Source: Treponema sp. (GTDB lineage: Bacteria > Spirochaetota > Spirochaetia > Treponematales > Treponemataceae). From it: a DNA stretch of 64,000 nt. A model generated the notes under the pieces. It had not been told where the DNA came from and did no database searches. It saw only the letters and a program-made list of their open reading frames with translations. The stretch lies in assembly GCA_016288205.1 (NCBI GenBank), contig JAEEYO010000011.1, positions 1 to 64,000 of the forward strand, given 5' to 3'. Shown one piece after another: positions 2 to 59,456 of the stretch; positions within the stretch are counted from its first letter, which is position 1; each line of letters starts with the position of its first letter. Made by a program: the position numbers and the translations under genes.

Positions 2-319
2 AGGTTTCTTGCGGAAAAGAAGGCTGAGACCGAACTGACAAGATCCATTGAGGAAAAAGTGTCCTTCGCTAGGAAAAACAAGGAATGGAGGCGACAGTAC
101 ATGACGTGGCAGCAGACAATAAACGAGGAAAGAGAGATTGCATTCGAAGATGGAATTGAAAGAGGATTTGAGAAAGGAATCGAGCAAGGAATTGAGCGTG
201 CGAGAATCGAAGACGCAGAGAATCTTCTGAAAATGGGAGTGGGCACTGTTGAGCAAATTTCACAGGCAACAGGACTTCCTTTGGAACAAGTCATGCAGAT
301 TAAAGAGCGGATTGTGTAA
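2..319 (+). CDS. Rpn family PD-(D/E)XK nuclease-like protein, C-terminal part (5' cut by window)
   Basis: The reading frame is open from base 2 to a TAA at 317-319, so only about 105 C-terminal residues of a longer protein are visible. They match the C-termini of the Rpn paralogs at 3950-4786 and 25411-26253: a basic segment (FARKNKEWRRQYMTWQQTI), then a charged run with GIE/GFE repeats, then an HTH-like tail ending in GLPLEQVMQIKERI. The family (recombination-promoting nuclease / PDDEXK_2) has its catalytic core in the N-terminal half, which lies outside the window. The tail is almost the same as that of the 3950-4786 copy at protein level and very similar at DNA level, so the two are recent duplicates. 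A GTG lies at 59, but the open frame and homology continue upstream, so it is not the start. Confidence 0.85.
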   Translation, partial: RFLAEKKAETELTRSIEEKVSFARKNKEWRRQYMTWQQTINEEREIAFEDGIERGFEKGIEQGIERARIEDAENLLKMGVGTVEQISQATGLPLEQVMQIKERIV

Positions 320-448
320 ATGTTACAAATCAGCAAGGTTTTTCACAAATTCTGATGACTGGAAAGAACATTATTCAGTAATTTTATGGTTAAACACTAA
401 GTACACATGGCTCATCGTAAAGTTTGATCTGCTCTTTGGTCTTTCATC

Positions 449-3400
449 TCATTCCTCATCTAATGCTTTTCTGCAATCATTTACAAATCTTCCAAAACCA
501 ATCGAATCAAGTTTTTGTTTTCTGGCTTTGGGAAAATCTTCTTTATACCAATCTCTGTTGTCATTTATAAATCTAGTTAATTTTTTCTCCAAAGGATCTT
601 TTGAGGATGAATTATTGGGAAAACTCCCATTATGAGTAACTAGCCATTGTTTTAACAACTCAAAGTTCTTATCCCAATTTTTTCCCGGTGACTTCTTTCT
701 ACCGTCTTGAATCCATTCAAAACCGATTGATTCTAATTGAACTATTTTGTCTTTTGATAGTTTACCATCATAATAATATGTTCTCTGGTCTTTGGCCCAA
801 GGACCGTAAACAGTTTTGCTTTTACTGCCTATTTTATCGTAATAGTTTGGCAAGAATCCATTTTTTTCATAATAACTCTTTAGATAAAGAAATTTATCAT
901 TCCAAGATTCTTTGTTAAAATCTATTATTTTAAAATCTCTTATTCTTATTTCTTCTAAGCATTTAATTCGATTTTGTGGTAATTGTAATTTGCTAGAGTT
1001 GTATTGCTTATACTGGTTTGATAACCAGTTATAAACTTTTTTATCTTCAATTTGATCTGGAAAATGACCTAATTCTTCAATTGCCCTTTTTGCATCTTCA
1101 AAACTTTTCATCCATTTAGGATCCTCAAATATAAAACCAATGGAAGAAAGTCTTTCATACCGTTCTTGTTTTAAGTTATTATTTCTATAATCACCCCTAA
1201 TCTGCATCATCCAAACTGCCAACTTATGTTCATCTCCTGTTGTTGCTTTATTTCCGCTTTTCTGGATTGGCCATTTTCCATTGTGAGTTTCAAGAAAATG
1301 AATCAATAAGTTAAAGTTGTCATTCCATTTATCTGCCTGGAAATCCCATGTAAAATTTAAGAATTCAAGTTTTTTTATCTTTTCTGCAGATAAAATTCCT
1401 TTTTTATAGAAAGTACGTTGTTGAGAACAAAATCGAGCAAGATTTTCATTATCTGAGTTTGTTGGAAAAGAATTATTATTGTTCTCCAAATACTCTTTTA
1501 GTTCCTTATAAAACAATTCCCATGTATTAGAGTTTTTTGAAATTATCTCCGTAAAAAGTGCAGTTTCTATATTCTTCTCTATGTTTTCAAAAGTTAACAA
1601 GTCATTTAATTTACTTTCCGAATCATAGACAAACCGTACTTTTAAATTTTCAAGGTTTTTATTTGTCTGCTTATATGCAAGATTGTTTATCTCATCTTGT
1701 AAACGCTCATCATGATCAGCAACAGAGCGAATTATTTTAATGACATTACTGAAGATACTTGTATCTATTTCTTCTTCGATATCCGTTTCTTTTTTAAAAT
1801 AGATTGGAATAATTATTTTCCCAATTTTATTTGGATTATTTTTATCTTTTCTAAGGGTTCTTCCCACAGCCTGCACAATATCAACTTTTGATTTTTTCGG
1901 GTCACAAAAAAACACCGCGTCAACAGAAGGGATATCTACACCTTCTGTCAGACATCTTGCATTTGCAACTACAGCTTTTTCCGAATTCCTAAAAGCATTT
2001 AAAATCAAACTTCTCTTGCTTGAAGGCAACTTTCCACTCACAAAGTATGATTCTATATCAGTGCTTATTTTTTTATTTCGTTCGGAAAAGAATTGGGCTT
2101 GATTCAGTTTTGAATGAAATGTGATTGCATGTTTTATAGAATACTTTTCGAAGGCAAGTTTTACTGCATAGTTATTTACAAAATCAGTTATAGAATTACT
2201 TTTGTCAATGTAATAATTGTTCTTTAACAAAGAATAAAGATTGTCATCGGCAATACCTAAACAAACAATCTGATAATCAACCAAAATCCCCAGTTGTATT
2301 GCCTCTGCAAACGACATTCTATATATTTCTTTTCCATAGGTAGTTTCATCGGACATATCAAAAAAAAGAATTCCTGTCTCTTCTATATTTTTCTTTATAG
2401 TTTGACTGTAAACTCTTGGGGTTGCTGTCATATACAGACGCTTTGCGATGTGCATGTTCTCTGTATCTTTATGAACCAATGGAAACACACCACAGTCTAT
2501 ACTCGCTGTTCTATGGGCTTCATCACATATTGCTAAATCAATTGCCGGAAGCTTCTCATCATAAGCTGCAATAATTTTATTAAAAGATTGATATGTAGAA
2601 AAAATGACTTTTTTATTGAAAGTTTCTTTTTTTATAAAACTCTTTATCTCAATTGGATTATCAATGACAAAGGAATCCAAATCATATAAATGAATATTTG
2701 ATGAATCCTCGTCTTTGTCGATATCCATTTCTGAACAAACAATTATATAATCAAAAGGAGCATTTGATTCTTTTATCCATTCATTTTTTGTTTGCCTAAT
2801 AAGGTTTAAGGAGGGAACTAAGAAAAGCGTTAGATTTACATCAAGTGTTTCTCTAATCCATAATGAAATTAGTGTTTTACCTGTTCCACAAGGTAATATC
2901 AATTTACCCCGATTAAGCTCTGAAAAATAGGATGAAACTGTATTTATTATTTCTTTTTGATATGGACGTGGACTTTTTTTAGTATATGAAACTTTTTTAC
3001 TGTTTTTTAAATATTCACGAAGATTAGCAAAGAAATCAGAATCAAGTTCCAAAAGATCCTTAATGCTAAGAAAGCACAAATTATCTGTTCTGTCTTTTGA
3101 AATATCATCAATTTCAGAAGCATTTGAGAAAATAATCAATTTTTGAATTTTACTAGATGAAGCAAAACCAAATAGATTTGCTAACTTATCCTTTGACCAT
3201 CCAAGTTTGCAACTCTCATCATTTTTAAATTTACATTGGACAGCGATAAAACTGTTATTATTATCTTGTAACAATAAGTCGATTCCATGGTCAGTATGGT
3301 TAATATTTAATTCTATTTTAGTATCCATTGGTATTTCATCAAACAACCATACTTCCTTGTATTCGTTCTGATATAGTGGATTACAAATAAAGAAATATTT

Positions 3401-3550
3401 TGCAAAATATTCAAATAGTTTTCCGGCTTCAGTGCTCTTCTTGCCACTATTTTGAATAGATGTATTGTATAATTGTTCCAGTTTTTCTTTTAGAGATTCC
3501 CAACTATTTTTGTTTTCGAGTAATTTTATTAACTCTGCTTTATAATCCAT
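449..3550 (-). CDS. Nuclease-helicase fusion: Mrr-like domain, SF2 DEAH helicase, five helicase-associated (HA) repeats
   Basis: 1033 residues. The N-terminal ~190 residues look like an Mrr-type PD-(D/E)XK endonuclease: GIDLLLQ with Asp91, then AVQCKF with Gln105-x-Lys107. Next is a superfamily 2 helicase/translocase: Walker A GTGKT (222-226), DEAH (343-346), motif III TAT (375-377) and motif VI QAVGRTLR (560-567). The C-terminal third (about 690-1030) holds five HA-type repeats, each with a W...F..L pattern, a short linker ending in FP/WP, and a closing LxxIGF. Start is ATG 3550 after a GTGAGGT ribosome site, with a TTGAAT-17-TATAAT promoter upstream. The gene is clearly more AT-rich than its neighbours and lies between two Rpn copies, which suggests horizontal acquisition. 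Such nuclease-helicase-HA proteins are often found in mobile or defence loci; a role here is inference. No methyltransferase or partner gene is next to it. Confidence 0.85.
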   Translation of the reverse strand: MDYKAELIKLLENKNSWESLKEKLEQLYNTSIQNSGKKSTEAGKLFEYFAKYFFICNPLYQNEYKEVWLFDEIPMDTKIELNINHTDHGIDLLLQDNNNSFIAVQCKFKNDESCKLGWSKDKLANLFGFASSSKIQKLIIFSNASEIDDISKDRTDNLCFLSIKDLLELDSDFFANLREYLKNSKKVSYTKKSPRPYQKEIINTVSSYFSELNRGKLILPCGTGKTLISLWIRETLDVNLTLFLVPSLNLIRQTKNEWIKESNAPFDYIIVCSEMDIDKDEDSSNIHLYDLDSFVIDNPIEIKSFIKKETFNKKVIFSTYQSFNKIIAAYDEKLPAIDLAICDEAHRTASIDCGVFPLVHKDTENMHIAKRLYMTATPRVYSQTIKKNIEETGILFFDMSDETTYGKEIYRMSFAEAIQLGILVDYQIVCLGIADDNLYSLLKNNYYIDKSNSITDFVNNYAVKLAFEKYSIKHAITFHSKLNQAQFFSERNKKISTDIESYFVSGKLPSSKRSLILNAFRNSEKAVVANARCLTEGVDIPSVDAVFFCDPKKSKVDIVQAVGRTLRKDKNNPNKIGKIIIPIYFKKETDIEEEIDTSIFSNVIKIIRSVADHDERLQDEINNLAYKQTNKNLENLKVRFVYDSESKLNDLLTFENIEKNIETALFTEIISKNSNTWELFYKELKEYLENNNNSFPTNSDNENLARFCSQQRTFYKKGILSAEKIKKLEFLNFTWDFQADKWNDNFNLLIHFLETHNGKWPIQKSGNKATTGDEHKLAVWMMQIRGDYRNNNLKQERYERLSSIGFIFEDPKWMKSFEDAKRAIEELGHFPDQIEDKKVYNWLSNQYKQYNSSKLQLPQNRIKCLEEIRIRDFKIIDFNKESWNDKFLYLKSYYEKNGFLPNYYDKIGSKSKTVYGPWAKDQRTYYYDGKLSKDKIVQLESIGFEWIQDGRKKSPGKNWDKNFELLKQWLVTHNGSFPNNSSSKDPLEKKLTRFINDNRDWYKEDFPKARKQKLDSIGFGRFVNDCRKALDEE

Positions 3551-3567
3551 ATTGACCTCACATTATT

Positions 3568-3596
3568 ATTATAGGTTTTAATACAGAATTATTCAA
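3568..3596 (-). promoter_or_regulatory. Sigma-70-type promoter of the nuclease-helicase gene
   Basis: On the minus strand, TTGAAT (3596-3591), a 17-base spacer and TATAAT (3573-3568). Transcription would start near 3561 and give a short leader carrying the GAGGT ribosome site. Confidence 0.55.
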
Positions 3597-3601
3597 CACT
3601 T

Positions 3602-3648
3602 AACAATTTAACTATACAAAACCATCAATTTAGCATAGTTAAATTGTT
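3602..3648. promoter_or_regulatory. 14-bp perfect inverted repeat upstream of the helicase promoter
   Basis: AACAATTTAACTAT at 3602-3615 is matched by its exact reverse complement at 3635-3648 across a 19-base spacer. It lies directly upstream of the -35 box of the helicase gene. That position suits a binding site for a dimeric regulator, or it may be an AT-rich cruciform or terminator. No regulator gene is adjacent. Confidence 0.5.
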
Positions 3649-3761
3649 ATAATTATGTAAAGAAAATTTTATTTCATGGTGAAATCTCATTTTTCCCTAA
3701 AACTAGGTAATCATTAATCACAAAAACTGGTACAAGTACACGGCACTGACAGCCCCAAAAT

Positions 3762-3857
3762 ATGACTTATAACATCCCAAACTTAGCTGACGCTGACGCA
3801 AAGAAGGTAAATGCCGCTTTCGAGTTATATTCCGCGGGAGTAAATCAGCTCTTATAA
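3762..3857 (+). other. Possible small ORF or gene remnant (31 codons)
   Basis: ATG at 3762 to TAA at 3855-3857 encodes a 31-residue peptide (MTYNIPNLADADAKK...). Its composition looks like real coding sequence, and the region is less AT-rich than the helicase next to it. There is no Shine-Dalgarno sequence, and an in-frame stop lies 12 bases upstream. It could be a remnant of a gene broken when the island formed, or chance. I do not recognise it. Confidence 0.2.
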
Positions 3858-3875
3858 CAAGATTTTATAAAAAAC

Positions 3876-3921
3876 TTTGCGAATTTGATTACCGTGGTGA
3901 AGATTTGCGGAATATTATAAT
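3876..3921 (+). promoter_or_regulatory. Conserved upstream element of Rpn gene, copy A
   Basis: The 35 bases 3876-3910 match 25289-25323 upstream of the third Rpn gene at 27 of 35 positions without gaps. The core is TGATTACCGTG, two variable bases, then GAAGATT. Both copies are followed by a TATTATA-rich, -10-like segment (here TATAAT at 3916-3921). No normal TTGACA-like box lies 16-18 bases upstream of that -10, so the core may be an activator or alternative-sigma site. Confidence 0.5.
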
Positions 3922-3949
3922 GCAGAGTCAAAAAAAAAGGAGCTGCATT

Positions 3950-4786
3950 ATGGGAAAAATACAAAAGTCTCCCGCGTGGGAAGACCTGACCTTTGCGAAC
4001 AATTTTCTTTTCTGCAAGATTATGGAAAGCGAGCCGGAGCTGTGCCGCCAAATTCTGGAGATGTTGCTAAACATTAAGATTGAGAGACTGGAGCCGGTCC
4101 AGGCTGAGCGAACCATGCTGGAGACGATGGACTCAAAAAGCGTCCGTTTCGACGTGTATGCAAAGGATGACAAGCGGATTTTCGACATTGAGATACAGAC
4201 AAGCGCGAACACAAATCTTCCGAAGAGAGCAAGGTACTATCAGAGCGTGATTGACATGGACAATCTTTCGCAGGGGGAGAATTACAGCAAGCTGAAAGAC
4301 TCCTACGTTATCTTTCTGTGCCTGACACCCCCCTTCAAGAAAAACCGTCCGGTCTATTTCTTCGAGAACACCTGCCGTGGGGACGACGAAATAAAATTGA
4401 ACGACAGGACCTTCAAGGTCTTTTTTATTGCCAGCGAATATGCTAAAATGGAAAGCGACGAGGAAAAGCACTTTTTCAAATTTTTAGCCGGGCAGAAAGC
4501 CGAGAGCGGGCTTACCAAATCAATAGAAGAAAAGGTCTCCTTCGCCAAGAAAAACATGAAGTGGAGGAAACAATATATGACATGGCAACAGACGATAGAT
4601 GAGGAAAAGGATATTGCCTTTGAGGAGGGAATGAAACTCGGAATCGAACAAGGGATAGAGCGTGCGAGAATCGAAAACGCAGAGAATTTTCTAAAAATGG
4701 GAATAGTCACTGCTGAGCAAATATCTCAGGCAACAGGGCTTCCGCTGGAGCAAGTCATGCAGATTAAAGAGCGGATTATGAAATGA
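3950..4786 (+). CDS. Rpn family PD-(D/E)XK nuclease-like protein (full length)
   Basis: 278 residues. ATG 3950 is chosen because AAGGAG lies 7 bases upstream (3937-3942); the frame stays open to 3905 with no better start. The first ~60 residues hold the family's typical opening (WEDLTFANNFLFCKIM). A PD-(D/E)XK-type core follows, with RFDVYAKDDKRIFDIEIQT giving the Asp...Glu-x-Gln pattern. The RARYYQS segment, a YVIFLCL strand and a VYFFEN strand come next, then a charged C-terminal tail. Rpn proteins are known as recombination-promoting, RecA-independent DNA nucleases, commonly present as many paralogs in one genome. This copy and the one at 2-319 flank the helicase gene as direct repeats. 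Confidence 0.88.
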   Translation: MGKIQKSPAWEDLTFANNFLFCKIMESEPELCRQILEMLLNIKIERLEPVQAERTMLETMDSKSVRFDVYAKDDKRIFDIEIQTSANTNLPKRARYYQSVIDMDNLSQGENYSKLKDSYVIFLCLTPPFKKNRPVYFFENTCRGDDEIKLNDRTFKVFFIASEYAKMESDEEKHFFKFLAGQKAESGLTKSIEEKVSFAKKNMKWRKQYMTWQQTIDEEKDIAFEEGMKLGIEQGIERARIENAENFLKMGIVTAEQISQATGLPLEQVMQIKERIMK

Positions 4787-4793
4787 GACTTTT

Positions 4794-4911
4794 ATCCCCC
4801 GCGTTAGGGATGCGGAGGGCGGCGGAGCCGTTCCGAAGGAATGGAGCGGGAATGCGGAACCCGGAGCAGCCCGACCCGCCTGTCCCGGAGCGCAGCGGAG
4901 GGGCAGGCGGG
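4794..4911. repeat. GC-rich multi-hairpin intergenic element, likely dispersed repeat
   Basis: About 118 bases of very GC-rich sequence following the Rpn gene, with at least four hairpins: ATCCC/GGGAT (4794-4811), CGGC-GGA-GCCG (4820-4830), TTCC-GAA-GGAA (4831-4841), and a long CCCGCCTG...CAGGCGGG stem (4875-4911). No coding potential is apparent. The base composition differs sharply from the AT-rich island beside it. It resembles a REP-type element, but a second copy is not present in this window. Confidence 0.45.
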
Positions 4912-4968
4912 GAACGCCCGCTTGAAGATTAATCGCTTGTTCTGAACGCCGTTAAGTTTCTTGCGCTT

Positions 4969-5355
4969 TTAATCCGTGCCACGACATTTTTTTTCGAGAA
5001 AACTATATACATGGTCGTTGAAGCCTTCTTTCAATATCATCAGTTTCTCACTTGCGGTCAAAGATTTGGAGCAGGACAAGTACATTTTCATTCCGCCCTC
5101 AAAAAGGTCAAGCATGTGGTCCAGAAAGTGTGACATGGTAAACACGATGTCATCATAGTCCGTATCGGGGCCTGGTTGGATGTGTCTTTGCGGACAGTAG
5201 GATAATGTCTCAGCCAATCGGATTATGGAATCCCACACGGTGTACTGGTCGCTCACTTCAAGCATGTCGCTTGTGAAGGTCCTGAGATCATGTAATTCAT
5301 TTTCGGTGAGGGGAAAACGGATGTCGCGGACAAGGTGGTAAAATTCCCATCGCAT
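4969..5355 (-). CDS. Hypothetical protein, probably 5'-truncated or with a misplaced start
   Basis: 128 residues from ATG 5355, ending in a TAA/TAG at 4969; I do not recognise the family. The protein is mostly helical, with acidic and aromatic residues and three cysteines, and has no signal peptide or membrane segment. The reading frame remains open for another 37 codons upstream to a stop at 5467-5469. That extension (PKTLREIYRKNPKALI...) looks coding, yet it contains no ATG, GTG or TTG. The ATG at 5355 has only a weak AGAAAAG upstream. The gene may therefore be a decayed fragment, or it may be translated from an unusual start just after the lipoprotein gene that precedes it on the same strand (stop at 5478). 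Confidence 0.55.
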   Translation of the reverse strand: MRWEFYHLVRDIRFPLTENELHDLRTFTSDMLEVSDQYTVWDSIIRLAETLSYCPQRHIQPGPDTDYDDIVFTMSHFLDHMLDLFEGGMKMYLSCSKSLTASEKLMILKEGFNDHVYSFLEKKCRGTD

Positions 5356-5477
5356 GCTTTTCTGCAGAATGTTCTCGTCGGTGAATCCAAGGTGTTGTGC
5401 AGCCGCATAGCAGATGAGTGCCTTTGGATTTTTCCGGTATATTTCCCTGAGCGTTTTCGGCGGATCTTAGGCGGGCT

Positions 5478-5978
5478 CTATTTCTGTTTCGGCAGGATTT
5501 CTATGGAGCATCGTTTGACTGCGCTCAGGTTTCCTGCATGATCCTCCGCCCTCGCACGGAATGTCCATTTGCCGGATGAGCCGGCCGTTAGCGGATGTGC
5601 GAAAAGAAACTGCTCCGCGTACTGATAGTCCATGTTTATGTCGAAGCTTTCGGATGCGGAATTCGGGGACTCGGCCTTCACATGCACGCACTTGATGTCC
5701 CAGTTTTTGTCTTTCAGCTCAAGGAAAAGAACCACGGGGCTTCCTTCCGACGTTTTTTTGACCTGGGTGGCGGAGGGGCTTCCCGACATGGAGAGAGTGA
5801 ACCCGATCTGGAGGATTTCAGGACAGACTCCGTTGCCAATGTGCAGCTCGCCCTCATCGGAGACCCTTTCCTTGTCCTGCTTTTGGCCCTGCTCCTTTGC
5901 GTTGCCCGCGGTATTTCCCGTCGTGGCGCAGGAAATCAGCAAAAAAATAAGCGCGAGCGGCAGAATCAGTCTTTTCAT
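5478..5978 (-). CDS. Small lipoprotein with a single Ig-like/Big-type domain
   Basis: 166 residues. Start ATG 5978 follows a GGAGG site 5 bases upstream; an in-frame ATG at 6017 has no ribosome site. The N-terminus is a lipoprotein signal (KR, hydrophobic stretch, LLISC lipobox), followed by a flexible Thr/Gly/Lys-rich linker. A beta-rich region of about 110 residues comes next and ends with FRARAEDHAGNLSA, the closing-strand pattern seen in bacterial Ig-like domains and in the giant proteins of this window. It is expected on a cell-envelope membrane. The promoter at 6006-6033 fits. Function unknown. Confidence 0.75.
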   Translation of the reverse strand: MKRLILPLALIFLLISCATTGNTAGNAKEQGQKQDKERVSDEGELHIGNGVCPEILQIGFTLSMSGSPSATQVKKTSEGSPVVLFLELKDKNWDIKCVHVKAESPNSASESFDINMDYQYAEQFLFAHPLTAGSSGKWTFRARAEDHAGNLSAVKRCSIEILPKQK

Positions 5979-6005
5979 GTTTCCTCCATTGTTCCCCACA
6001 GGCTC

Positions 6006-6033
6006 ATTATAGCACATTTTGGCGGGAATTCAA
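6006..6033 (-). promoter_or_regulatory. Promoter of the small lipoprotein gene
   Basis: Minus strand TTGAAT (6033-6028), 16-base spacer, TATAAT (6011-6006). It lies 28 bases upstream of the ATG and its SD. Confidence 0.5.
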
Positions 6034-6122
6034 TCCGTGTAACTTAAATATGAAGGGAATGTTTAATCTGTGTTGAATCCATTGCAAATTCTCCGATATG
6101 AAGATAGAATGGAGGTATGGGA

Positions 6123-8303
6123 ATGAAGAAAACACTTGGGATTATATTTTTATTTGCGCTATCAGCATGCCTCAGTTTTGCAGCTCCATCGGGGGCTCTC
6201 CGTACCGTTTTGGACGAGATGAACATGGCGAGAACGGCTCCGTCGGACTATGCGGCGACAAGATTGGAACCTCTCCTTTCCGGGGACAAGACTCCATACC
6301 AGAGGGCACTTGCCGAGTGCATAAAGCAGCTGAATTCAATGGAACCGCTTCCGGCATTGACATGGGGGGACGGGCTCGCATCCTGCGCGGACGAGGTCGT
6401 GAAATCAAAATGCGCCGGGGTGGATTACCCGGAGATTTCAGAGCGGATCGGAAAATACTGCAACTGGAAGGGATGCACGGAGTCCCTTGTAAGCGGTCAG
6501 TCGGTTCCAAGGTCCATCGTCATAAAGCTGCTGGTGGACAGTGACTCGGCGAAAAGGGTCAACCGGAACAACGTGCTTTCAAAGGAATACTCGCACGTGG
6601 GTCTCAGCATGGCCCCGCACAAGGAAGAGGCATACATCTGCTGCATGGATTTCGCCACGGGATATTTTTCTTCTGACGCCGCAAGCCAAAAGGTTCTCCT
6701 TACCAAAAACGGAGCAAAGTCGCTGGTCTCGGAGCTCAATTTCGCGCGGACCAAGCCACGTGATTATGTGAAGACACGTCTCATGCCCCTTTACTCAGGC
6801 GGGAACAGCAGATATCAGAAAGCCCTCGGCGAGCTGATTGACGAGATGAACGGAATGGTCGCGGTGAACCAGCTTGCGTTCAGTGAGGAGCTTTATTCCT
6901 CGGCAAAGGACTGGACCGATTTCCAGACCGCGGATGTGACGGAAGAGCCAGTGGCAGAGACTGCGGACGGGGACGGGAATACGGAGGCGGAGAAGGAGCT
7001 CAGCTGGGAGGAAAGGCTCAGAAAATACAGGAGCTTCGGAACCGTTGCGGAAAGCGTCGCATTCGGATCAGGGAGCGTGCAGGCATACGTCGCGGACCTG
7101 CTGATTGACGAGGGAAACAAGGAGTCCGTGAACCGGAGGAACCTGCTTTCATCAGTCTTCACACATGCGGGGGCAAGCGTGGGCGTGAGGGACGGAGTCT
7201 CCATCTGCTGCGTGGATTTGGGCACATGGTATGACGTGAACACAGTCCCGACCGAGGCATTTGACCTTCTTTCGGACAGGGCTCCCAAACAGATTCTTGA
7301 GGAAATCAACTTCGCAAGGACGAACCCGACTGAATACGTGAAGACAAGACTTGAGCCCCTGCTTACCGACGAGACTGACGAGACTCAGAAAGCGATCAAG
7401 GAGCTCATAAGAAAGATGCTCGGAATGCCGGCGCAGAGCCCCATGATTTACGTGAGGACACTTGAGAACGCGGCGAAGGAATGGGTCAGGAGCCAGTCAT
7501 CCACGGCGGACACGGCCTATGACCAGAACTGGGAGGCAAGGATCGGCAAGTACTGCATGTGGAACGGAGGAAGCGAGAGCCTTTATTTCGGTTCCGCGAA
7601 TCCCGAGAACATGGTGCGCGAAATGCTCATCGACGCTGAGAATCCGTCAAGGTCAAGGCGGGAGAACATTTTGTCCCGGGTCTACACTCACATCGGAGCC
7701 GCAACCGGAGTACACGCGAAGTATGAGGGAATCTGCCTGATTGAGTTCGTGGGGGACTACCTGGAGTTCAACGAGAACGCACTGAAATCACCGAATTCAC
7801 GGCTCGGAAAGGGAATCAGCCTCGCGGAGCAGAACGTAATAGCCGAAATCAACTTCGCACGCACGGAGCCCCAGCGCTATGTCACCGAAAGACTTGAGGG
7901 GCTGGTAAGAAACGAGGTGAGCACATATCAGAGCGCGCTTCTTGAGCTGATTACCGAGATGAACAAGATGTCGCCGAGGAAAAAGCTTGATTTCAAGGCT
8001 GAGCTTCACAATGCGGCGGACGAGTGGGTCAAGGAAAGCGGTCCCGAGGGAGTCGTGGGCTATGCGAAGGACTGGAGCGACAGGATTGCGAAATTCTGCA
8101 AGTGGAAGGTATGCTCGTCAAACATCTCTTACGGCGCTTTTACCCCACAGGACATAGTGCTGCAGCTTCTGATTGACGCGGGTGAGCCGAACCGTGGGCA
8201 CCGGAAAAATCTTCTTGACGAGAACATGAGCGCGGCGGGTGATGCGATCGGAGAGCACGCTGAGTACGGAATCATGTGCTGCATAAACCTGATCTCCGAG
8301 TAA
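6123..8303 (+). CDS. Secreted or lipid-anchored protein with four tandem CAP (SCP/PR-1-like) domains
   Basis: 726 residues. ATG 6123 is preferred over the in-frame ATG 6117 because GGAGG (6111-6115) is 7 bases away from the former and only 1 from the latter. The signal sequence offers either a lipobox (ALSAC) or a signal peptidase I site (SFA|AP). Four repeats start near residues 28, 205, 388 and 569. Each carries NFART-P-YV-TRL, a YQ.AL.ELI.EMN segment, W..RI.KYC.W and a late (V/R)N(I/L)L motif. CAP family members bind lipids or act in envelope and host interactions. Repeats 1-3 keep the GEN-type Glu (TES, AES, SES) but lack the GHR histidine; repeat 4 has GHRKNLL but Asn instead of Glu. No repeat shows both cavity histidines, so catalysis looks unlikely. 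Confidence 0.85.
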   Translation: MKKTLGIIFLFALSACLSFAAPSGALRTVLDEMNMARTAPSDYAATRLEPLLSGDKTPYQRALAECIKQLNSMEPLPALTWGDGLASCADEVVKSKCAGVDYPEISERIGKYCNWKGCTESLVSGQSVPRSIVIKLLVDSDSAKRVNRNNVLSKEYSHVGLSMAPHKEEAYICCMDFATGYFSSDAASQKVLLTKNGAKSLVSELNFARTKPRDYVKTRLMPLYSGGNSRYQKALGELIDEMNGMVAVNQLAFSEELYSSAKDWTDFQTADVTEEPVAETADGDGNTEAEKELSWEERLRKYRSFGTVAESVAFGSGSVQAYVADLLIDEGNKESVNRRNLLSSVFTHAGASVGVRDGVSICCVDLGTWYDVNTVPTEAFDLLSDRAPKQILEEINFARTNPTEYVKTRLEPLLTDETDETQKAIKELIRKMLGMPAQSPMIYVRTLENAAKEWVRSQSSTADTAYDQNWEARIGKYCMWNGGSESLYFGSANPENMVREMLIDAENPSRSRRENILSRVYTHIGAATGVHAKYEGICLIEFVGDYLEFNENALKSPNSRLGKGISLAEQNVIAEINFARTEPQRYVTERLEGLVRNEVSTYQSALLELITEMNKMSPRKKLDFKAELHNAADEWVKESGPEGVVGYAKDWSDRIAKFCKWKVCSSNISYGAFTPQDIVLQLLIDAGEPNRGHRKNLLDENMSAAGDAIGEHAEYGIMCCINLISE

Positions 8304-8310
8304 AGGATGG

Positions 8311-8337
8311 GCCGAGAGATTCCGATTTCCCGGCTTT
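8311..8337 (+). terminator. Hairpin between convergent CAP and sigma-factor genes
   Basis: GCCGAGA (8311-8317) pairs with TCCCGGC (8328-8334), with one G-T pair, followed by a short TTT. It is a weak terminator candidate for the CAP gene. Confidence 0.35.
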
Positions 8338-8345
8338 CCATACGA

Positions 8346-9164
8346 TCACACGGCCACGTTTCTTCTGAGATGGCGAATGGCGCGGATTTCCGTCTGGCGG
8401 ATTGCCTCGGGACTGATTCCGAAAAGGGTCGAAAGATCACGGAGAGTCTTCTGCTTTTCATCGCACGCGAAATTGAAGCGGTACCAGAGAACCTTGGACT
8501 CGTTGGCTGAAAGTGTGCCGAGAAGGCTCCTGACCTCTTCCTTTTCCTCCCTTATCATGTACTGCTCTTCCGGTGAGTAGGTCGTATCCGGGAGCATGTC
8601 GCCAAGGCTTGTTGCTTTCTCGCCGTCCCCCACTTCCATGTCGAGCGATGAGACAGAGAAATCATACTTGAGCAGGCTTCTGAGGGCTGACTCGGAGATT
8701 CCCATGTATTCGGCAAGCTCAGAGTTTGACGGTGCCTCGCCGTTTTCAAGGGTCAGATCCTCCCTCGCCTTGTGCATGGCCTTGAGCATCGCATCCTTTC
8801 TGTTCGGTATGACGATTGCAGCGACCCTCGTCTTCATATAGCGGATCATGTACTGTACGATCCAGGGATAAGCGTATGTGGAGAATCTTGTGCCGTATTT
8901 TCCGTTGAATTTGTGCGCCGCCGTAATCAGGCCCATGTTTCCTTCCTGAATAAGGTCCATCAGCGGGGCGGAGAGTTTCGTAAAGCGAAGTGCCACCGTA
9001 ATAACGAGACGGAGATTTGAGTTGACCAGTTTCTCCAGGGCGGCTCTGTCTCCCTGCGCGATTCTGTGTGCCAGCTCGGATTCCTCATTTGCTGAGAGGA
9101 GCGGGAACCTCTTTATCTGGCTGATATAAACACTGTCAATTTCCGTATAAACGTTCGCTTTCAT
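8346..9164 (-). CDS. Sigma-70 family RNA polymerase sigma factor
   Basis: 272 residues. ATG 9164 follows AGGAG. Region 1.2 spans about residues 10-40. Region 2 includes DLIQEGNMGLI (70-80, core binding) and FSTYAYPWIVQ (94-104, -10 recognition). Region 3 covers about 125-205, and region 4 ends in a helix-turn-helix (TLRDLSTLFGISPEAIRQTE) that reads the -35 box. The length is that of group 2/3 factors (RpoH/RpoS-like) and it lacks the long N-terminal region of a primary sigma. The region 2.4 and 4.2 signatures are complete, so it should be active. It is not an ECF factor, as region 3 is present. Which stress or growth state it serves cannot be told from this sequence; no anti-sigma gene is adjacent. 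Confidence 0.88.
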   Translation of the reverse strand: MKANVYTEIDSVYISQIKRFPLLSANEESELAHRIAQGDRAALEKLVNSNLRLVITVALRFTKLSAPLMDLIQEGNMGLITAAHKFNGKYGTRFSTYAYPWIVQYMIRYMKTRVAAIVIPNRKDAMLKAMHKAREDLTLENGEAPSNSELAEYMGISESALRSLLKYDFSVSSLDMEVGDGEKATSLGDMLPDTTYSPEEQYMIREEKEEVRSLLGTLSANESKVLWYRFNFACDEKQKTLRDLSTLFGISPEAIRQTEIRAIRHLRRNVAV

Positions 9165-26419: not shown

Positions 26420-29400
26420 CTACCTCATCTGGGCGGTCTCTACAGTAGTATCAGGTGCAGTTGCCCAAACCTGATATCCCAGAATAGGATAGTCCGTTCC
26501 GTTTCCATAAACCTTGTTTCCGTTTGTGGTTTGCCCTCCGGTATAACTAGTAATAACTCCTGTAGAGTTATTCTTCCACACACCGACATTGATTCGGCTG
26601 TTGTTCGGAGAGCTCGAATCTACCTTGTAGATATTCTTCGGTGTGGGAACATAGGTCACCTCCCAGTTTCCTGTAAAGAAATCCTCTGATGCACCAGCCG
26701 CAAAATCTGTTGAAACAAGCTTTGCAAGTTTCGGATACTTGTCATAGACATAGCCGATATATGGAACTGCATGAGAACCTGTTATTGTACCATTATCATC
26801 GACATCATTTACCAAGCCAACATCCAGTGTGAGCTGCTTACCTACGACACTTCTTGAATCCACAATGCAGGAATCAGTTGCCTCACTATAGCCTTCACCA
26901 GTGTAAGAAGCCAATCTTGCATAACGCACATCTCCCCTGATGGAATCGTAAGCCGCAATGTGCACACCACCTTTTCCATCAACCTTTACCTGACAGAACT
27001 CACCGGCACCTTCAAAAATCGTCTTTGCTCCTGACCAGTTAGCATGATTGAGACCACAGAAATGATTACTTGTATCACGCCAATCTTCATTCAACGGATT
27101 CGTATTATAAGTATAGCGAGTACATTTGGCGGCAGCGTCATACCATACAAGCACGACTGTCCCAGCGCCTGATGGAGCAGAAGCAGGTACCGTCGCTATG
27201 GAAACATAGGGGCCGGCACCTCCAAGTGGAGTACCATCATACTTCGCGGAGATACTCGTCTCAGTTGGCTTAAACGATGTTGCAATCACCTGCGCATCCC
27301 TGCAAGAATAATAACCCGCATTGACATTATTAACAGAATTTTCATTAATAGTTTTGGTCTTATAGGCATCCCTGAATATATTTCCCGAATAAGTGCTACC
27401 ACTAACTTTTCCTCCCCTGAACCTTATTTCACCGTTCCAGCTGTCATAGTAAGCGATGTATACATTTGTTGTCGTCCCGCTTAGATAGGTCGCCATTACA
27501 GGATTCTTTATCTTATTCTTAAGATTGTAGGACTCAGTATCCCTGCCAGAATGGTCTTCACCATCAACTCTTTTGCCCACCTGACCGGTAAGTTCAATTC
27601 TGTAATTACCATCTCCTTTCTTTCCATAAACCCAGAAAGGATCCGCTTTATTATCATCAGAATCTTGACCGGCAGAACATCCATAAGTATTTCCAGCAGT
27701 GTCATAGGTGAAATATCCGCTTACCATAAAGTCAGTTGTCGATTTCTTTCCTGTCTTATAGGAATTATCGGAACTCTCTGGCATAGCAAACCACATGGCT
27801 CCATCCAAGAAAGAGAATCCCAGCATGCCATTGTTCGGGTTTATCTCCATATGCGGATCATCTGTTTTTCCTGTTGTTGATGCCGCTCTGGAGTTAAACT
27901 GCCAGACATCGATTTCCATGTCGTCGGTGAGGCGGTTGTTTGTGGCTCCGTCCGGGAATCTGTTCGGGTAGTTGTCATAGAGCTTGTTCTTCTTGGACTC
28001 GCTGTAGGTCTTGGTGCTGGAGTACTTTCCCTTGGCATCATTGTCGTTCATGTTGTTAATAGAGACCATGGTGTTAACAGTTACGGTAAACTTTCCTGAG
28101 TACAGGGAACTTGCCGCAACCTTGAACAATGAGTAACCATTGTAACTGGTCGGATCATTAGCACCAGGAGCCGCGAGCGACACAGAATGAGATTTATTAT
28201 CCTTGAAAGTTGCTCCCGTCGCAAGATTAAATCCATAGACGAAGAACGACTCATCCTTGTTTACCGGGAAATGGCCCAGTGCGGTTCTGTCGTAGAAAGT
28301 ACGTCCTGTCGTTGAGAGGGAAGTCCTCAGTCCGAGGATATAGGGCACTACATCCATCTGATATTTAGACTTGTTCTCAACTCCATCAACCTTAGTCGTG
28401 TCGTCATCGGCAGGAGAGGTAGTATAGCCGCCGTCCATAGCATAAACAAGCAGCTTAACGTCCTTGTTTGCACTTCCGGCAATCTTGGAAGTGTCTACAC
28501 TCAAAGTCCAGCGAACTTTATGTCCCCTCTGATCGAAGTAGACAGGCTCCACGGCAATTTCCCAGAAATCATCAGCCATAGAAGGTGAGGCTACATTCCA
28601 TCCGGTATCTCCAGTACCTGTATAGTTCGCAACCTCAAAGCAGTCGACATCACCCACAGTATAGGTTCCGCCTGAACAGAATCCGTCAGTCACATGACTA
28701 GTGAATGTCATGCCGCCGAAGTTCATCAGCAGAGATTTAATCATTGTCTCATCATAGGCATATCCGGTAAATGTCACCTTACCAGAAACCTTGGGATCTC
28801 CGTCATACTGTCCGTTAACAGCTTCAGAACTATAAGAGGTTCCATCCTTCTTCCACTCATAATCGAGCTCAATGTGACCGTTTGCCTTGCTGTTCTTATA
28901 AAGGCTGTTGTCGCTGCCGCTGTTCCAGTAAAGCGGTTCAATCACCGTCCTTGGAGGAACTTTGTCAGTAAGAGAAAGCTCAAGATCCATGATACGGAGC
29001 ACACAACTCTGGGTCGTCTGACCTTGAATAAGCTCTTCAGTTGAATCCCAGATTGTAAATGACATCACCTTGGATCCGTCGTCACTAGCCGTCCAAGTAT
29101 TCTCCTCTTTTCCCGTGAGCAACACGTTGGAGAGCACATAACCGGAAGTTACCTTAGTATTGCCGGTGAAATTCGTAGTGGCTGCATGAATCAGATCAGT
29201 TCCAGAGCCCTGAGTCGGAGTCGGATAAATGTATGTTACGCCATCATCATCTGTTCCTGAACCCTCAGCATCCTCGGCATCCCTGTTGAACACAAGGAGC
29301 TTCTCCCCATTTCCGCCAACCAGCTCAGCATACAGGGCAAGCTTGTTCGTGATCTTGAATGCCGGCCTTGTGCTTGCAGAAACGACCAAGGACTTTCCGC

Positions 29401-32400
29401 TGCCGCTTACAGTGCTGTATCCGGCCGTAGTAAGGTCATAAGCGTCCTGATACATTGACGTTACACCGTGAATGTCATAAAGCTCGAACTCGCTGTCCTC
29501 AAATTTGTTGTTATTGTTCAAGTCAGTACCGAGGTAGACTTTGGCAAGACGAGGCGGATTGTTTTCAATGGAACCTGTCCTTGTCGCGGCGGAGATGTTT
29601 CCAGCATTATCCATTGCAAGCACAACGAAGGTTACAGGACCGTCCGCCATGTAGTTTCCGTGGAGGGTGGCATCCCATGTCCAAGTGTTTCCTGACTTGC
29701 TGACAGATTCAGGCATGCCGTCACCGTCATCGCGGGAATTCTTGAAAGTATGTCCGCTTTCGGTCCATGTCTGGAGCGTCTCCGCGGATGTATTGTCAAC
29801 CACCTGCATATATGGGAAGAATGCAGACGTAACGTCGGTGCTCGCGCTCTCTGCTATGGTGATGTTTGTTCCGTTTACGGCACTTATAATGTACCAGACA
29901 TCACCAATCATAACAGTTCCGCCCTTGCGCACAAAGCTGTCGGCACTTCCTGTGTAGCTAAACTGTGTGCTGCTGTCCGTCGCCCAAGTGATGCTGTAGG
30001 TCTTACCATAAATATTCTGTCCGGCGACTTCCTTGGTCGTTATGGTAGAATCGACAGTTACAGTCTGACCAGAAACCTGAGAATCAATGACTTTAACCGA
30101 AGAGCTTCCACGGTAGAATGCGAAGAGAAGCTTGGAGAATCCAGATCCTGGCACTTCGTCTGTACCGTCTGTCACAGTTCCGCCAACAGTAAGCTGGAGA
30201 TTGCTGTTCTGCAGTTTCTTGTTGTTTTCAAAAACATCTCCATTCGCAAGCAGCGTCTGTATATTCGGAGCAGTATTATCGTATCTGAAGGTGTAAAGCT
30301 GCTCCTTGAACAAAGCAGTCTCACTTCCCTCAATTGCGGTAACACGGACCTCCCTTGTGCCGTTACCAGTATTGGTTGAAAGAGGAACCTTAATAGTGTA
30401 TCCTTCCTTGCCGTTCGTACCGGTAGTTGAAAGGCCGTCAAAGTCCTCCGCCACGGCTCCTGTTCCGTCTCCGATTACACCATCAACAACATGGTTAATG
30501 ACGGTCTGATCATTTGATTGATACTCACCTTCTGAGCTGGTGATGGAACTGATTCCGTTGGCATGCTCGGCGGTTGTAATGAGGGCGGCATATCCCTTAA
30601 CCCACATATCATCAACATATTCTTTTTCACCAACCTTGTGCTGCATTGCCTCGTCGCTGTAGAAGAACACCTTCGGCACATGGTTTCCAATGGCGGGAGA
30701 CTTAGGATTGATGCTGATCGGAAGCGGGTTGCTCCACGGTCCCAAAAGTCCGTTGATGTCCACGGCGGCGGCACGTACCCACACAGTATAGGTCTCAGTG
30801 CTGTCTGTGTCCAGAGCGGCCGTAATCTGAAGGTCATTGAGCTTGTTCAGGACTGAGTACCAGCTTCCTGTTGACCTAGCCTCAATGCCCCAGAACTCAG
30901 GATCCGCAACGTAGAGAGAAGGATCATTAGAGTAAACGCTGTTTTCACCTGTCCAAAGATCAGAGACTGTCTTGACGGTGTAGGTGGCGGGAAGCTTTGT
31001 GCGATCCCACTTGGAGCCACTCTTCATGAGATTAATGCCGGCTGCCGTATTTCTGTTGTCAGAATCACCAAGAGCTATCTGAATGAACACCTTGTCCACG
31101 GCCTCATTGTCTCTGGCTGTTCCTGCGACACGGATATTTCCAGAAGCCTTTGCGAACAAATCGGTGGATCCGGAAGCAGGAGCCGGTGAAACAATCGTCG
31201 CAATCGGTCTGTTTCCGTAGGGGTTGTATGTAATCTTGCCCTGGTGAACACTCTCGTTACCGAGCTCGTCCTTCGCCAAGACAAAAACGTCCAGCGTGTA
31301 GATGTCCTGCTCGGTATGATAAACCTTCGTATAAGACGCAAGCTCGGCTGCCGTAGAAGGAAGCTTCCTGTACAGCTTTGTAGAATCCTCCTGATCGAAT
31401 TCCACGGACCAGCTCAAAAGCGAGTCTTCCTTAACCTCGTCAGCAAAATCTGTATAAAGCTTTGTCTTAAGTGCTGAATAATCATCCGCCGTCAAAGATG
31501 AGAGCAGTGTACCATCCGAATCGTAGTAGGTATCGTCAGGTATGAAGCACCAAAGCGCACTCACATTGGAACCAAGCTGATCGTAGGTTGTACCCGCTAT
31601 CTCAACGAGTCCGGTGAGAACCGTATTCTGATTTGTTGAGACAGTAATGACAGGACCGTCATTGTCAAAAATCACTGGAGTAACGCTGCTCGCATCAAGA
31701 CCGGACGTGTCGCTCGCAGTAACCGTCAGTGTGCTCTGACCGCTTGTAAGCTCCGAGACATCGTAGTTATATACGTAAACAGGGCACTCCCTGCCGTCGG
31801 GGTAGGTGTATATCACATCTTCAATCTTTACGTAGGGGACAGAAGAGTCATTTTCAAAGTCAGTTCCTGTCACAGAGGAAATGCCGTTTGTGTCATAGGG
31901 CGCGACCAAAATGGACATGAACATCCTTTCAGTACCACCGAAGACTTCTGAGACACCCATTGTCTTTCCCTGTTCAAGATTGGCAAGAGCTTTAGTCTGT
32001 GCGGCTGCGGCAGTTGCACCGTATCCTGACACTACACGTACTGTCGGAGGAGTGCTGTCAGAGCGGTATTTAACCTCAGAATCAAGATCTGTCTCTGCCG
32101 TAGTTCCGGCGTATACAGCCTTTGGCTGCTTCCATGCCGGAGAATTTGAAGTCCAGAAGGTATTTCCAGCAGTATCCCTTATATAGATATAAAGTGTCTT
32201 TACGCCGTCCAAGGTTCCCTGCGGCACATAGTTGAATGAAACGCTCGTGCTTCCCGGAGTATAGTTAAGCGTTCCCGCGGGCTGAGGATAGGTCTCCCAG
32301 TTTCCCGGCAACGAAGAGGCAATCTTGATTTCAGCCACACCGTCATCGTCGGTAACGGTTCCGTAAATGCGAGAGGAGTACTTTGACGTGTACATAGGCA

Positions 32401-35400
32401 CATCGGGCTCACCCAAACCGTTGTTGGTAATCTCATTGAACTTCACGACAGGTCTGTCCGTATTCATGTCAACGGTATAAGTCGTGTAGTTAGCGCTTGT
32501 GATATTTTCCTTGTCTACGTTCCAGTTTCCGGCCTCATCACAGGCAACCAGCATGAGGTATCCAGTTCCAGTGCCACTAGAACCTGCAAATTCATTCAGG
32601 TCAATGTCAGCGAAAGTACAGTGATAGATTTTTGAGACTTCCTGCAAACTTATATTACGTGCAACATCAACCTCAGTGCTGTCAGTGGTGTAAGCTCCGA
32701 CCAAATCCCAATCATCAAGGTCTGTGGGAGCAGTTCCGGATGCCTTGTAGAGATAGACTGATTTCGGTGCATTGGGTCCGTCCGAGACAGTACCGAGAAC
32801 GTCGAATGTTCCGTTGTGAATGTCGGTGTTCGGGCTGTCAATAACCGTTGTCGGAGGAGTCGTGTCAACCTTGAGTGTCGCCACAGGATAGCGGTAAGCA
32901 TTTCCCGCCCAGTCTTTGACATTCGCGTAGACCACAGGAGTGGTTCCAAGATTGCCCTCAGAGAACCATTCGGGCTTCGGAGTAATCGTAAGCTCCCACT
33001 TAACCTTCGAGGAGCCGTCCTGCATATAGAACGGGGGCAATGTGCCATCCTGATTGAAACTCCATGCTCCGGCATCAGTCTTGCTGTAGTCTATCTTTTC
33101 CAAATCACCCTTATTGTCCTCGGCCGTAGCATCCCACTTGTAGAAGCGGACCTTTCCGTAGCTGCTGTAGGAATTCGGGGCTGCGTTCGGATTCTGAGAA
33201 AGATAGGTGTTTATCTCCGCCTTATTATTCAATGCCGTATAACTGTCGTAGGCAGGAATATACAGAGGATCATGGCCCACCACGAAATTGATAATCTCAA
33301 GTCCAGAAAGATCGTCTTCCGCAGTTCCGGTAAGCACAATGTCTGCCTCACCGTTAGTAAGCTTCGTTTCGCCCGAATCAGAATCGACGACACTTACAGT
33401 CTGGTCAACATTAATCTTAACTTCCTTGCGTAAGCTTGTGTTTCCGCAGTTATCTACCGCAATCAGGTAGAGTCTGTCTGAAACACCGCCCTCGACGGGT
33501 CTGAATCCGTTAAGAACCTCTGAGAAGCTGTAGTATGTGGAATTCGTGTAGGATTCCTTCTCAATCTCTTGAGTTGACGGATTTACTTTGGGAGTTCCGT
33601 AAACATCTCCCGAGGCAGGAGCATTCAGCTGGTATTTTTTCAACTCACCGGAGCTGCTGCTGGGCTTGTTACCCGCGCACCGTGGCAGAGAAGTAATTAC
33701 TCCCGTAGAGGAGGTTTCATAGGTGCTGAGCGTCATCGGCGTGTCACCGGGATGACAAATCTGGTAGTAGAGTTTTGCCATACCGCTGCCCTTTTCCTCA
33801 AAGTATCCTGCGACGGGTATTGAAGTCTTGTTAGTAAACGTACTTTCAGAATACTTTCCACCCCCAACGAAGAACGCGGTATCCTTATAGACTGGTGCCC
33901 CATTATAGGTGTAAGAGGCCTTGAACATGTTTGAAAGGAAACTTGGGCCCACAGAGTCAATAATAATCTTATAGTTCTTCTCTGCGGTTCTTCCGACCTC
34001 ATCGGTAGAGACCACAGTAAGCACGCCCTCATTGCCATTACCCCATGTGCTCAGATCAGTGAAGCTAAGCGTAAATGACCAGACACTTGGTGCGGTAGCT
34101 GAGCCTGAAGCAATTTCTTCCGAACCTTTTTTCAGCGTATATACGGTTGAAGTCACCCCGTAATTGTCCGTGCTTGTACCGGAGAATGTGAATGTAGAAT
34201 TGTTCACATAATATATCGCGTCAAAAGTGCCTGTAGAATCATCTTCCCTATATGCACCAGAAATGACGGCACTGTTAATCTCAGGGGGTCTATCATCTAT
34301 AGTCAGAGCGAACGCGGTCTTTACGGAACCGTTGCCCGCCTTGTCCTTCGGCTTTGCGGAAACAGTCTTTCCGGCAATGTAGTCAAGGTTGGCTCCGCTG
34401 GTAACAACAGCCCTCCAGTGCTTAATCAGATTCTTATTGCTGTCGTTAATAGTATTTATCCATCCTGTGTAAGTAGCGAAATCCGTGACCGCAGCAGGAG
34501 CGTAGCTGACCGAGACTTTGCTATTTATGTTCTCGGAACCAAGGAAGAAGTCTATTCCGTCAACGCCTGAGCCTGTATCTTCGTAAGTTCCATAGACAAT
34601 AAAGTCCGCGTCTCCCTTAGTGAGAACCTTTCCCTGAATCTCCACCGGAGTCTGGTTTCCGTTCTGATAGTGAGTGACGCTGAATTCAGGCGCGTTGGTG
34701 TCCACATGCACAGGGTACTTCTTCACAATGCTGCTATTGTCCTCCTTGTCGAATGCCTGAATATAGAGATAGTTGCAAGGATGTTCGGTACTGTCAACAG
34801 AGAATCCGTTGTCCGTCGCATAGAAATCAACGGCGTTACCCTTGCCGTTCAGATAGACGGTCTTCGCGGAGCTGTCACCGCTGAGAGTTGTCGGAAGCGT
34901 TGAGTCGTCGGAAATCTTGTAAAGGATTTTGCCCATAGCAACAGATTCGTTCACTGTGCCGGAGAACTTCAGGGTCGTGCTGTTATAATACGAGAGGCTT
35001 TCGGACCATAACTGATCCTTTATCTTGAAGCCATCGTTTATTACCGGTGCCGTGCCGTCAAATACGAGGCTAAAGTTCTTTGTCACAGGTCTGTCGGCAA
35101 GATCCGTTGCGGTAACAGTAATATTCCACTTACCATCAGCATTCGGAGCCGTCAGCGTTATGGATCCGGTCGCAGTGGTTCCGCTTGAACCAGGATTTAT
35201 GCCGATGCCCAGAGATGCGTTAGTTTCAGTAACAGGGGCTTCGTCATCCTTTTTGGCGGAAATTTCGATGCCTGCGATTCCAAGGCTGTCCGCCGCATTA
35301 ATAGTGATTGTAGCTTTTCCAGCCGACGTAATATTACCGGATGTCAGGTTATAAGAAGCCTGGTTATTTACCACCAACGTCGGCGCGCCTGTATCAATGG

Positions 35401-52252: not shown

Positions 52253-52267
52253 AATCACACCTCACTC

Positions 52268-59021: not shown

Positions 59022-59456
59022 AGCCAAGTCCTTCCAAAGCATTTTGGATCCCCGGTGAAGTTCTGCTCCACCGAAGCCTGATTGAATCATATTTTAGGTC
59101 TTCCCTCTCAGGGAGAAGTCTAAATCTACGCAACAACCCTTGAAGACATTTCGGACTTGCAAGGGAGGGGTGTTCGAAATTGTTCTGCAATAACGTGAAT
59201 AAAATGTCAGACTCCGGGACAATACCAAGCACCCTAGAATCTTCTTTTACCCTTCCTTATCGGCAGAATCAAACAATTCCTTTAATTCAACCAATTTTAA
59301 ATGGAACCGCCGCCAATACCAAAGGCAGCCCGTTCATAAAACACTCGGAGACCGGATCAGGTAACACATTTTCACGACTCCGGAACTCGCTCATTGCATT
59401 AAATAAGACTAAGATTTTTAAATATTCTACCCGAGCAACATGCTTTCGCACGAAAC
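59022..59456 (-). other. 435-base gap between the sirtuin and the barrel protein genes
   Basis: It contains the leader and presumably the promoter of the 2172-residue gene, but no pair of boxes with normal spacing stands out. Two inverted repeats are visible: CCCTTG...CAAGGG (59137-59165) and an imperfect CTTCCCT/AGGGAGAAG hairpin near 59099-59118. No credible ORF. Confidence 0.3.

Follow-up and report, generated by a model that had tools for sequence, protein, structure and literature searches.

What does a gene do that joins a nuclease, a motor and a run of helicase-associated (HA) repeats in one chain, and does it serve defence? It sits within Rpn repeats where a draft contig of a Treponema sp. 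genome ends, and is considered here within the window, that is, the whole stretch of 64,000 nucleotides analysed. The parts of the gene are as follows.

449-3550, minus strand: open reading frame of an Mrr nuclease, SF2 translocase and HA-repeat protein of 1033 aa.
3107-3382, minus strand: Mrr_cat_2 (PD-(D/E)XK) nuclease domain, residues 57-148, with Asp91 and Gln105-x-Lys107 (Pfam, 8.8e-13).
2414-2977, minus strand: first RecA-like half of the SF2 motor (ResIII, residues 192-379), with G222-T-G-K225-T and DEAH at 343-346 (Pfam, 4.9e-22).
1847-2149, minus strand: second RecA-like half of the SF2 motor (Helicase_C, residues 468-568), with R564/R567 (Pfam, 5.6e-14).
494-1522, minus strand: five HA repeats, residues 677-1019 (Pfam HA, five stretches, 2.4e-43).

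The frame opens with ATG, contains no internal stops and is intact over its 1033 residues. A preliminary description had read it as an Mrr-like nuclease, a DEAH helicase and five HA repeats in one protein, and on this point Pfam and a family-built HA profile agree, the latter likewise placing five repeats at residues 677-1019. The residues named there (Asp91, Gln105-x-Lys107, Lys225 and the DEAH motif, which falls at 343-346) are in place, and D91, Q105-C-K107, G222, G224, K225, DEAH and R564 are invariant in all 15 aligned rows. The AlphaFold model of the protein has a pLDDT of 73.8, and a single HA repeat is modelled as a confident three-helix bundle (pLDDT 87.6). Two fold comparisons of the HA repeat, by Foldseek (best E 3) and by a second method among 10 chains only (best Z 4.0), returned no match pointing to DNA binding.

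The key kinship of the protein, which the preliminary description had missed, is by sequence and modelled fold with the type ISP enzymes minus their methyltransferase half. Among solved structures the best matches are LlaBIII (4xqk, residues 21-638, 5.5e-62) and LlaGI (5ffj, 6.5e-54); a fold ranking of the AlphaFold model also places LlaBIII first, with SauUSI, HsdR, XPB and RadD behind it, and the D...QxK of the nuclease aligns with that of LlaBIII. The closest PADLOC models are ISP/IIG-type enzymes only, covering residues 22-650, and a whole-length match to any PADLOC model was not found. Similarity to the ISP enzymes ends at residue ~640, the position from which complete ISP enzymes of the same phylum carry the coupler and, if the piece is long enough, methyltransferase domains. 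Neither the coupler (PF22240) nor a methyltransferase family (N6_Mtase/Eco57I) was found by Pfam in the window protein at E<=1, and the HA array occupies the place of the ISP coupler, methyltransferase and recognition domain. The coupler is present in 7 of 9 scanned relatives, the exceptions being a stand-alone HA protein and a protein with INT_rpt repeats. Four spirochaete genomes (L048-L051) have open frames of 213-252 aa that contain HA repeats and no in-frame motor.

A phylogeny of the motor speaks against an ISP-like defence reading, since the motor groups with HA helicases, a kind of protein of which at least one example, TtrA, reportedly acts in plasmid transfer and not in defence. In this tree of 49 rows, in which bootstrap is not fully settled and several branches are long, among the HA helicases, the 14 Mrr-HA rows cluster together (100/99), L073 and L081 being omitted as near-copies of L072, and 25 ISP rows, the authors' own choice among those fetched, form a clade of their own (100/95). 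It is with the HA helicases and the protein bearing INT_rpt repeats, and not with ISP, that the Mrr-HA clade groups (24 rows, 100/95). The order of parts in the window protein, SF2 motor and then HA repeats, is also that of the PF03457 HA helicases.

A scan of one genome per species returned 20 loci, 17 of which (L067-L083; one Treponema and 16 Bacteroidota) carry the same front half together with HA repeats; of the other three, L084 encodes an ISP-like protein, L085 is a fragment and L086 is a match to an archaeal helicase. L067, in a Treponema MAG, is a close relative of the window gene, and the Bacteroidota proteins share its layout at 36-44% identity. Three relatives are incomplete, L069 being cut by a contig end and L071 and L075 broken, and the whole genes carry 5 (window), 6 (L067), 7, 8, 10, 13 or 14 HA repeats. 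Within the genus, 2 of 200 genomes carry the gene (its own and G958) and seven more match the nuclease-motor part only. Across Spirochaetota, 29 of 392 genomes match at E<=1e-25; among these, HA repeats behind the motor are known only in the window's genome and INT_rpt in one, G151, and the part of the remaining matches that was scanned for domains carries the ISP coupler. No further full-length relative beyond the known centre was found among 395 Bacteroidota genomes, where one ISP-sized protein matched. In viral contigs neither a single-protein search nor alignment A1 returned a relative; alignment A3 gave 43 loci, none with HA repeats by the family profile and, by ORF size, mostly ISP-type with a few short or broken. 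Phage records gave 48 matches, weak or partial.

Selection has acted unevenly along the gene. Between the window gene and L067, dN/dS (w) is 0.18 for the nuclease, 0.18 for the motor and 0.38 for the HA repeats; over 11 pairs the calculable values span 0-0.18, 0.04-0.18 and 0.09-0.47, respectively, 3 of the 33 region values not being calculable and those at high dS being rough. Strong purifying selection acts on the nuclease and the motor, while the HA array evolves faster and is less constrained. Because the same layout recurs in Bacteroidota at such distant identity, and because dN/dS against L067 is low, the arrangement of domains is not a matter of chance.

The array is also replaced in blocks. 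L072 and L076 are 93% identical in the nuclease and 92% in the motor, and the ends of their arrays are similarly close (repeats 1-3 at 91/81/68%, the last two at 89/94%), whereas repeats 4-11 in the middle find best matches of only 35-56% each and have been replaced. Repeats 3-4 of L080, moreover, resemble the last two of L072 (62% and 58%). Such turnover is the behaviour that would be expected of exchangeable recognition parts, and it leaves the recognised object unproven. As for the gene as a whole, L072, L073 and L081 are 93-97% identical in DNA along 5.1-5.3 kb that take in the gene and a little flank and go no further. Their records nevertheless belong to separate lineages, Cyclobacteriaceae, Aquiflexum and Saprospirales; two of the three are MAGs, in which mis-binning is possible, and L073 comes from a named strain. 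The window gene and L067 share 86% DNA identity over 442-3553 only. The gene is rare and, as these alignments read, moves almost alone between lineages.

The preliminary description had proposed a survey of neighbouring genes, and a defence gene is present within 6.5 kb at 7 of the 17 loci.

L067: PDC-S04, Fic-like, 195 bp downstream.
L073: PDC-M65A/B, 16 bp downstream.
L076: PDC-S15, directly upstream.
L078: DNA methylase and specificity subunit.
L080: AbiGi, 49 bp downstream, with a reverse transcriptase also near.
L082: Drt9 (3.3e-208).
L083: PD-Lambda-2_B.

The PDC families are themselves candidates only. The 148 gene neighbours within 6.5 kb (of 156 listed proteins, the 8 of L085 being left out) match 133 PADLOC families at 1e-10, and a control of 89 proteins, taken from contig 5 in these genomes (99 less those that ran to a region end), matches 4, these counts being of families and not of proteins, with a few proteins such as reverse transcriptases and methylases matching many models. 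PADLOC was run individually on 30 chosen proteins, rather than on every neighbour of every locus. At the other 10 of the 17 loci a defence neighbour is absent or was not seen; the homologs are not consistently placed in core metabolic loci, though L068, L070 and L075 have ordinary metabolic neighbours. The L067 locus also holds a WYL-type regulator, an IetA-like AAA protein and an IS3-type transposase, the regulator and transposase being recognised by eye. A literature search, with subscription journals mostly outside its coverage, found nothing relevant on the PDC families, on HA domains together with ISP enzymes, phage or restriction, or on integron-like defence cassettes in Bacteroidota.

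The flanks of the window gene contain the following features.

59-319, plus strand: Rpn-family gene, 3' part, incomplete at the contig start; flank, outside the system.
3905-4786, plus strand: Rpn-family gene, whole; flank, outside the system.
3601-3649, no strand assigned: inverted repeat with a 17-bp stem, 1 mismatch and a 15-nt loop, ~50 bp upstream of the start codon.

The base composition of the gene differs from its surroundings, as had been described (~30% GC beside ~50%): windowed GC is 0.29-0.32 across the gene, rises to ~0.41-0.44 at either edge and stands at 0.5-0.57 through most of 4500-9000. Both of the duplicated Rpn copies that had been noted are real, the left one being incomplete, but with 36 Rpn (TIGR01784) matches in the genome their presence here says little; on the same count, the idea that Rpn genes mobilise the gene was rejected. 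The 17-bp stem of the inverted repeat exceeds the longest stem (14) in 100 mononucleotide shuffles of 3540-3905; the repeat may be an operator, a recombination site or something else. Elsewhere in the window, a 728-aa protein with four tandem CAP (PF00188) stretches lies at 6117-8303 on the plus strand, and three consecutive giant ORFs lie on the minus strand at 26420-39220, 39656-52258 and 52503-59090 (4266, 4200 and 2195 aa).

Much of the defence reading put forward at the outset has held: homology to the ISP enzymes, a sporadic, mobile distribution, the defence genes near the seven relatives and an exchangeable, fast-evolving array all speak for it, and the gene quite probably serves defence, broadly understood. 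The Rpn copies contribute nothing to the case. The single-gene form of the reading need not hold everywhere, because three relatives (L073, L076, L080) seem to stand in one unit with a second defence gene.

In Bacteroidota, comparison of flanks revealed a hairpin of the form armA-ACA-armB-loop-armB'-AGA-armA', its ACA/AGA internal loop conserved, at both ends of the unit, in the orientation of the gene.

L072, 9892-9954 and 14946-15004: the two hairpins of one unit.
L073, L074, L076, L077, L078, L080 and L081: further hairpin loci.
L162, L173, L192-L194, L196-L199 and L247-L258: further hairpin loci.

A pattern scan of all loci found 17 hairpins, all at Mrr-HA loci (one counted twice), and 1 in three block-shuffled copies. 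In ten aligned hairpins 12 of 14 pairs change on both sides, so that the arms covary, a result biased in favour of pairing in that most sites had been chosen for it; this alignment (A7) holds the 10 sites that MAFFT placed in register, the other upstream type being left out. Hairpin model R1, with 150 candidates scored in each genome, gave at least 31 matches, spread over 6 of 14 genomes; with 18 candidates scored in each, it matched in at least 43 of the 296 Bacteroidota species. The last stop codon lies 6-19 bp ahead of the downstream hairpin in 11 of the 12 units measured. Outside Mrr-HA units R1 marks 18 places, 17 of which were viewed: eight look ordinary by their ORFs and nine carry PADLOC-grade genes, namely type I RM, a methylase, AbiEii with type IIG, a Ppl-like gene, a HerA-like gene with a methylase, HerA, LmuB, a type II endonuclease and a weakly MkoA-like gene. 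A further 12 units with two hairpins per contig, their ORFs judged by eye, comprise six defence-like, three metal-resistance or efflux and three unclear. Restriction systems, AbiE, HerA, Lamassu-like genes and metal resistance are all among the cargo.

At L078 the units form an array, with a hairpin, a methylase and specificity subunit, a hairpin, a GNAT gene, a hairpin, the Mrr-HA gene and a last hairpin; a tyrosine recombinase, which scores under the integron-integrase cut-off, faces away. In gene order this looks like an integron, and the hairpins possibly bound an uncatalogued integron-like or single-strand mobile cassette; they could instead be terminators or transposon-type ends. Hairpin-bounded cassettes offer a new handle for mining Bacteroidota defence genes. 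An integron origin of the window gene itself was rejected, no attC-like site having been found at it, and R1 has no match in the window, L067, G000 (the window's genome) or G446. G446, a related Treponema, holds a true integron integrase (1.3e-125, L154 8655-9836), and the window's genome holds only a C-terminal remnant, apparently the same gene in frameshifted form (L155 3071-3568, G000:C11).

How such a protein would act is best approached through its relatives. Type ISP enzymes recognise an unmethylated site and translocate downstream at 1-2 ATP per bp, and LlaGI/LlaBIII complexes nick upon colliding (PMC4666363, PMC7049714). Because the nuclease and motor are shared with these enzymes, the same motion and cutting are likely in the window protein, and because the ISP recognition part is absent and the array is the sole candidate part, recognition is assigned to the HA repeats. 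The exchangeable array of 5-14 repeats would recognise a target or trigger and load the protein on DNA; the SF2 motor would then hydrolyse ATP and move along the duplex, and the front Mrr nuclease would nick or break the invading DNA, probably when moving enzymes meet one another or a roadblock, as in LlaGI/LlaBIII. We infer DNA binding by the HA repeats, translocation, cleavage and the antiviral effect alike. The mechanism in full, that of a mobile, methyltransferase-free, ISP-like translocating nuclease with its target set by the HA array, has an even chance of being right. No mechanism or gene for sparing self DNA is visible; the host may be spared because the target is rare in it or absent, because what is attacked is modified DNA or a DNA structure that phages make, or through a partner. 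A wider proposal is offered tentatively, and is rather doubtful as a whole: the array would be a modular, block-exchanged reader naming the DNA, or the phage structure, to attack, long arrays would specify targets absent from the host so that no protective methylation is needed, and the Bacteroidota hairpin cassettes would carry it along with many other defence systems.

Self DNA could also be spared by modification-dependent restriction of a type IV-like kind, in which the array would read modified phage DNA and leave unmodified host DNA alone. This accounts for the missing methyltransferase, and SauUSI, an ATP-dependent endonuclease cutting modified DNA, is the next fold family after ISP; but the Pfam matches of the window protein include no known modified-base reader domain, and so many repeats, exchangeable as they are, go beyond the needs of one modified base, so the proposal is unlikely. 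That no self-protection gene is visible would also suit a sensor for abortive infection, in which the array, on binding a protein or a replication structure of the phage, would release a non-specific nuclease that damages the host as well. Array turnover would likewise suit an arms race with a phage protein; the conserved ISP-type SF2 motor, however, suggests action along DNA, and such a sensor is unlikely.

A helicase with nuclease for DNA transfer, telomeres or repair, like TtrA of Streptomyces, is improbable. HA helicases are abundant on plasmids, Streptomyces accounting for 345 of the 698 plasmid records that match any part of the query, and one of the genes sampled opens a linear plasmid, as does ttrA, which lies at replicon ends and whose product is reported in PMC8743542 to act in plasmid transfer and not in defence. 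The window-type gene, on the other hand, is scattered across species, rare, intact in its nuclease and found beside defence genes. That the gene is a decaying or inactive remnant of foreign DNA is very improbable indeed, since it is intact and under purifying selection, even if there are broken relatives (L071, L075) and one on a Rhodococcus plasmid without the Walker, DEAH and QxK residues. That plasmid relative (L061 9977-12943, plasmid pRZP4) has HA-like repeats, with the Walker lysine, DEAH and QxK all replaced, and seems to be a form without catalytic activity that a mobilizable plasmid maintains.

If the ISP-like translocating nuclease is the right reading, an ISP-type nuclease-motor half would be at work without the methyltransferase half, its recognition part replaced by block-exchanged repeats. 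Should the array read DNA, nature would here have joined a targeting module of variable length to a motor nuclease, and how a methylation-free motor nuclease spares its host becomes a directly testable question.

Compared with known systems, the HA helicases of plasmids and linear replicons (TtrA-like, and Pseudomonas and Cupriavidus genes) are alike in having an HA array behind an SF2 motor that falls on the same side of the motor tree, but the sampled Pseudomonas and Cupriavidus plasmid proteins begin at the motor, without an Mrr nuclease. The type found in spirochaete genome G151 (L027/L053; Mrr nuclease, SF2 motor and INT_rpt at L053 7508-10648) has the same front half, an intact QCK and neither coupler nor methyltransferase, and differs in that about six Trp-containing INT_rpt repeats (PF14882) replace the HA repeats. 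SauUSI, at rank 4 of the fold matches, is alike in ATPase-coupled restriction without a methyltransferase, but it is without an HA array and similarity is low, at 14% identity in the fold alignment. The type ISP enzymes LlaGI and LlaBIII are, like the window protein, single chains with a front Mrr nuclease bearing D...QxK and an SF2 motor behind it, homologous over residues 21-638; unlike them, the window protein is without the coupler, the methyltransferase and any known recognition domain, and carries the HA array instead.
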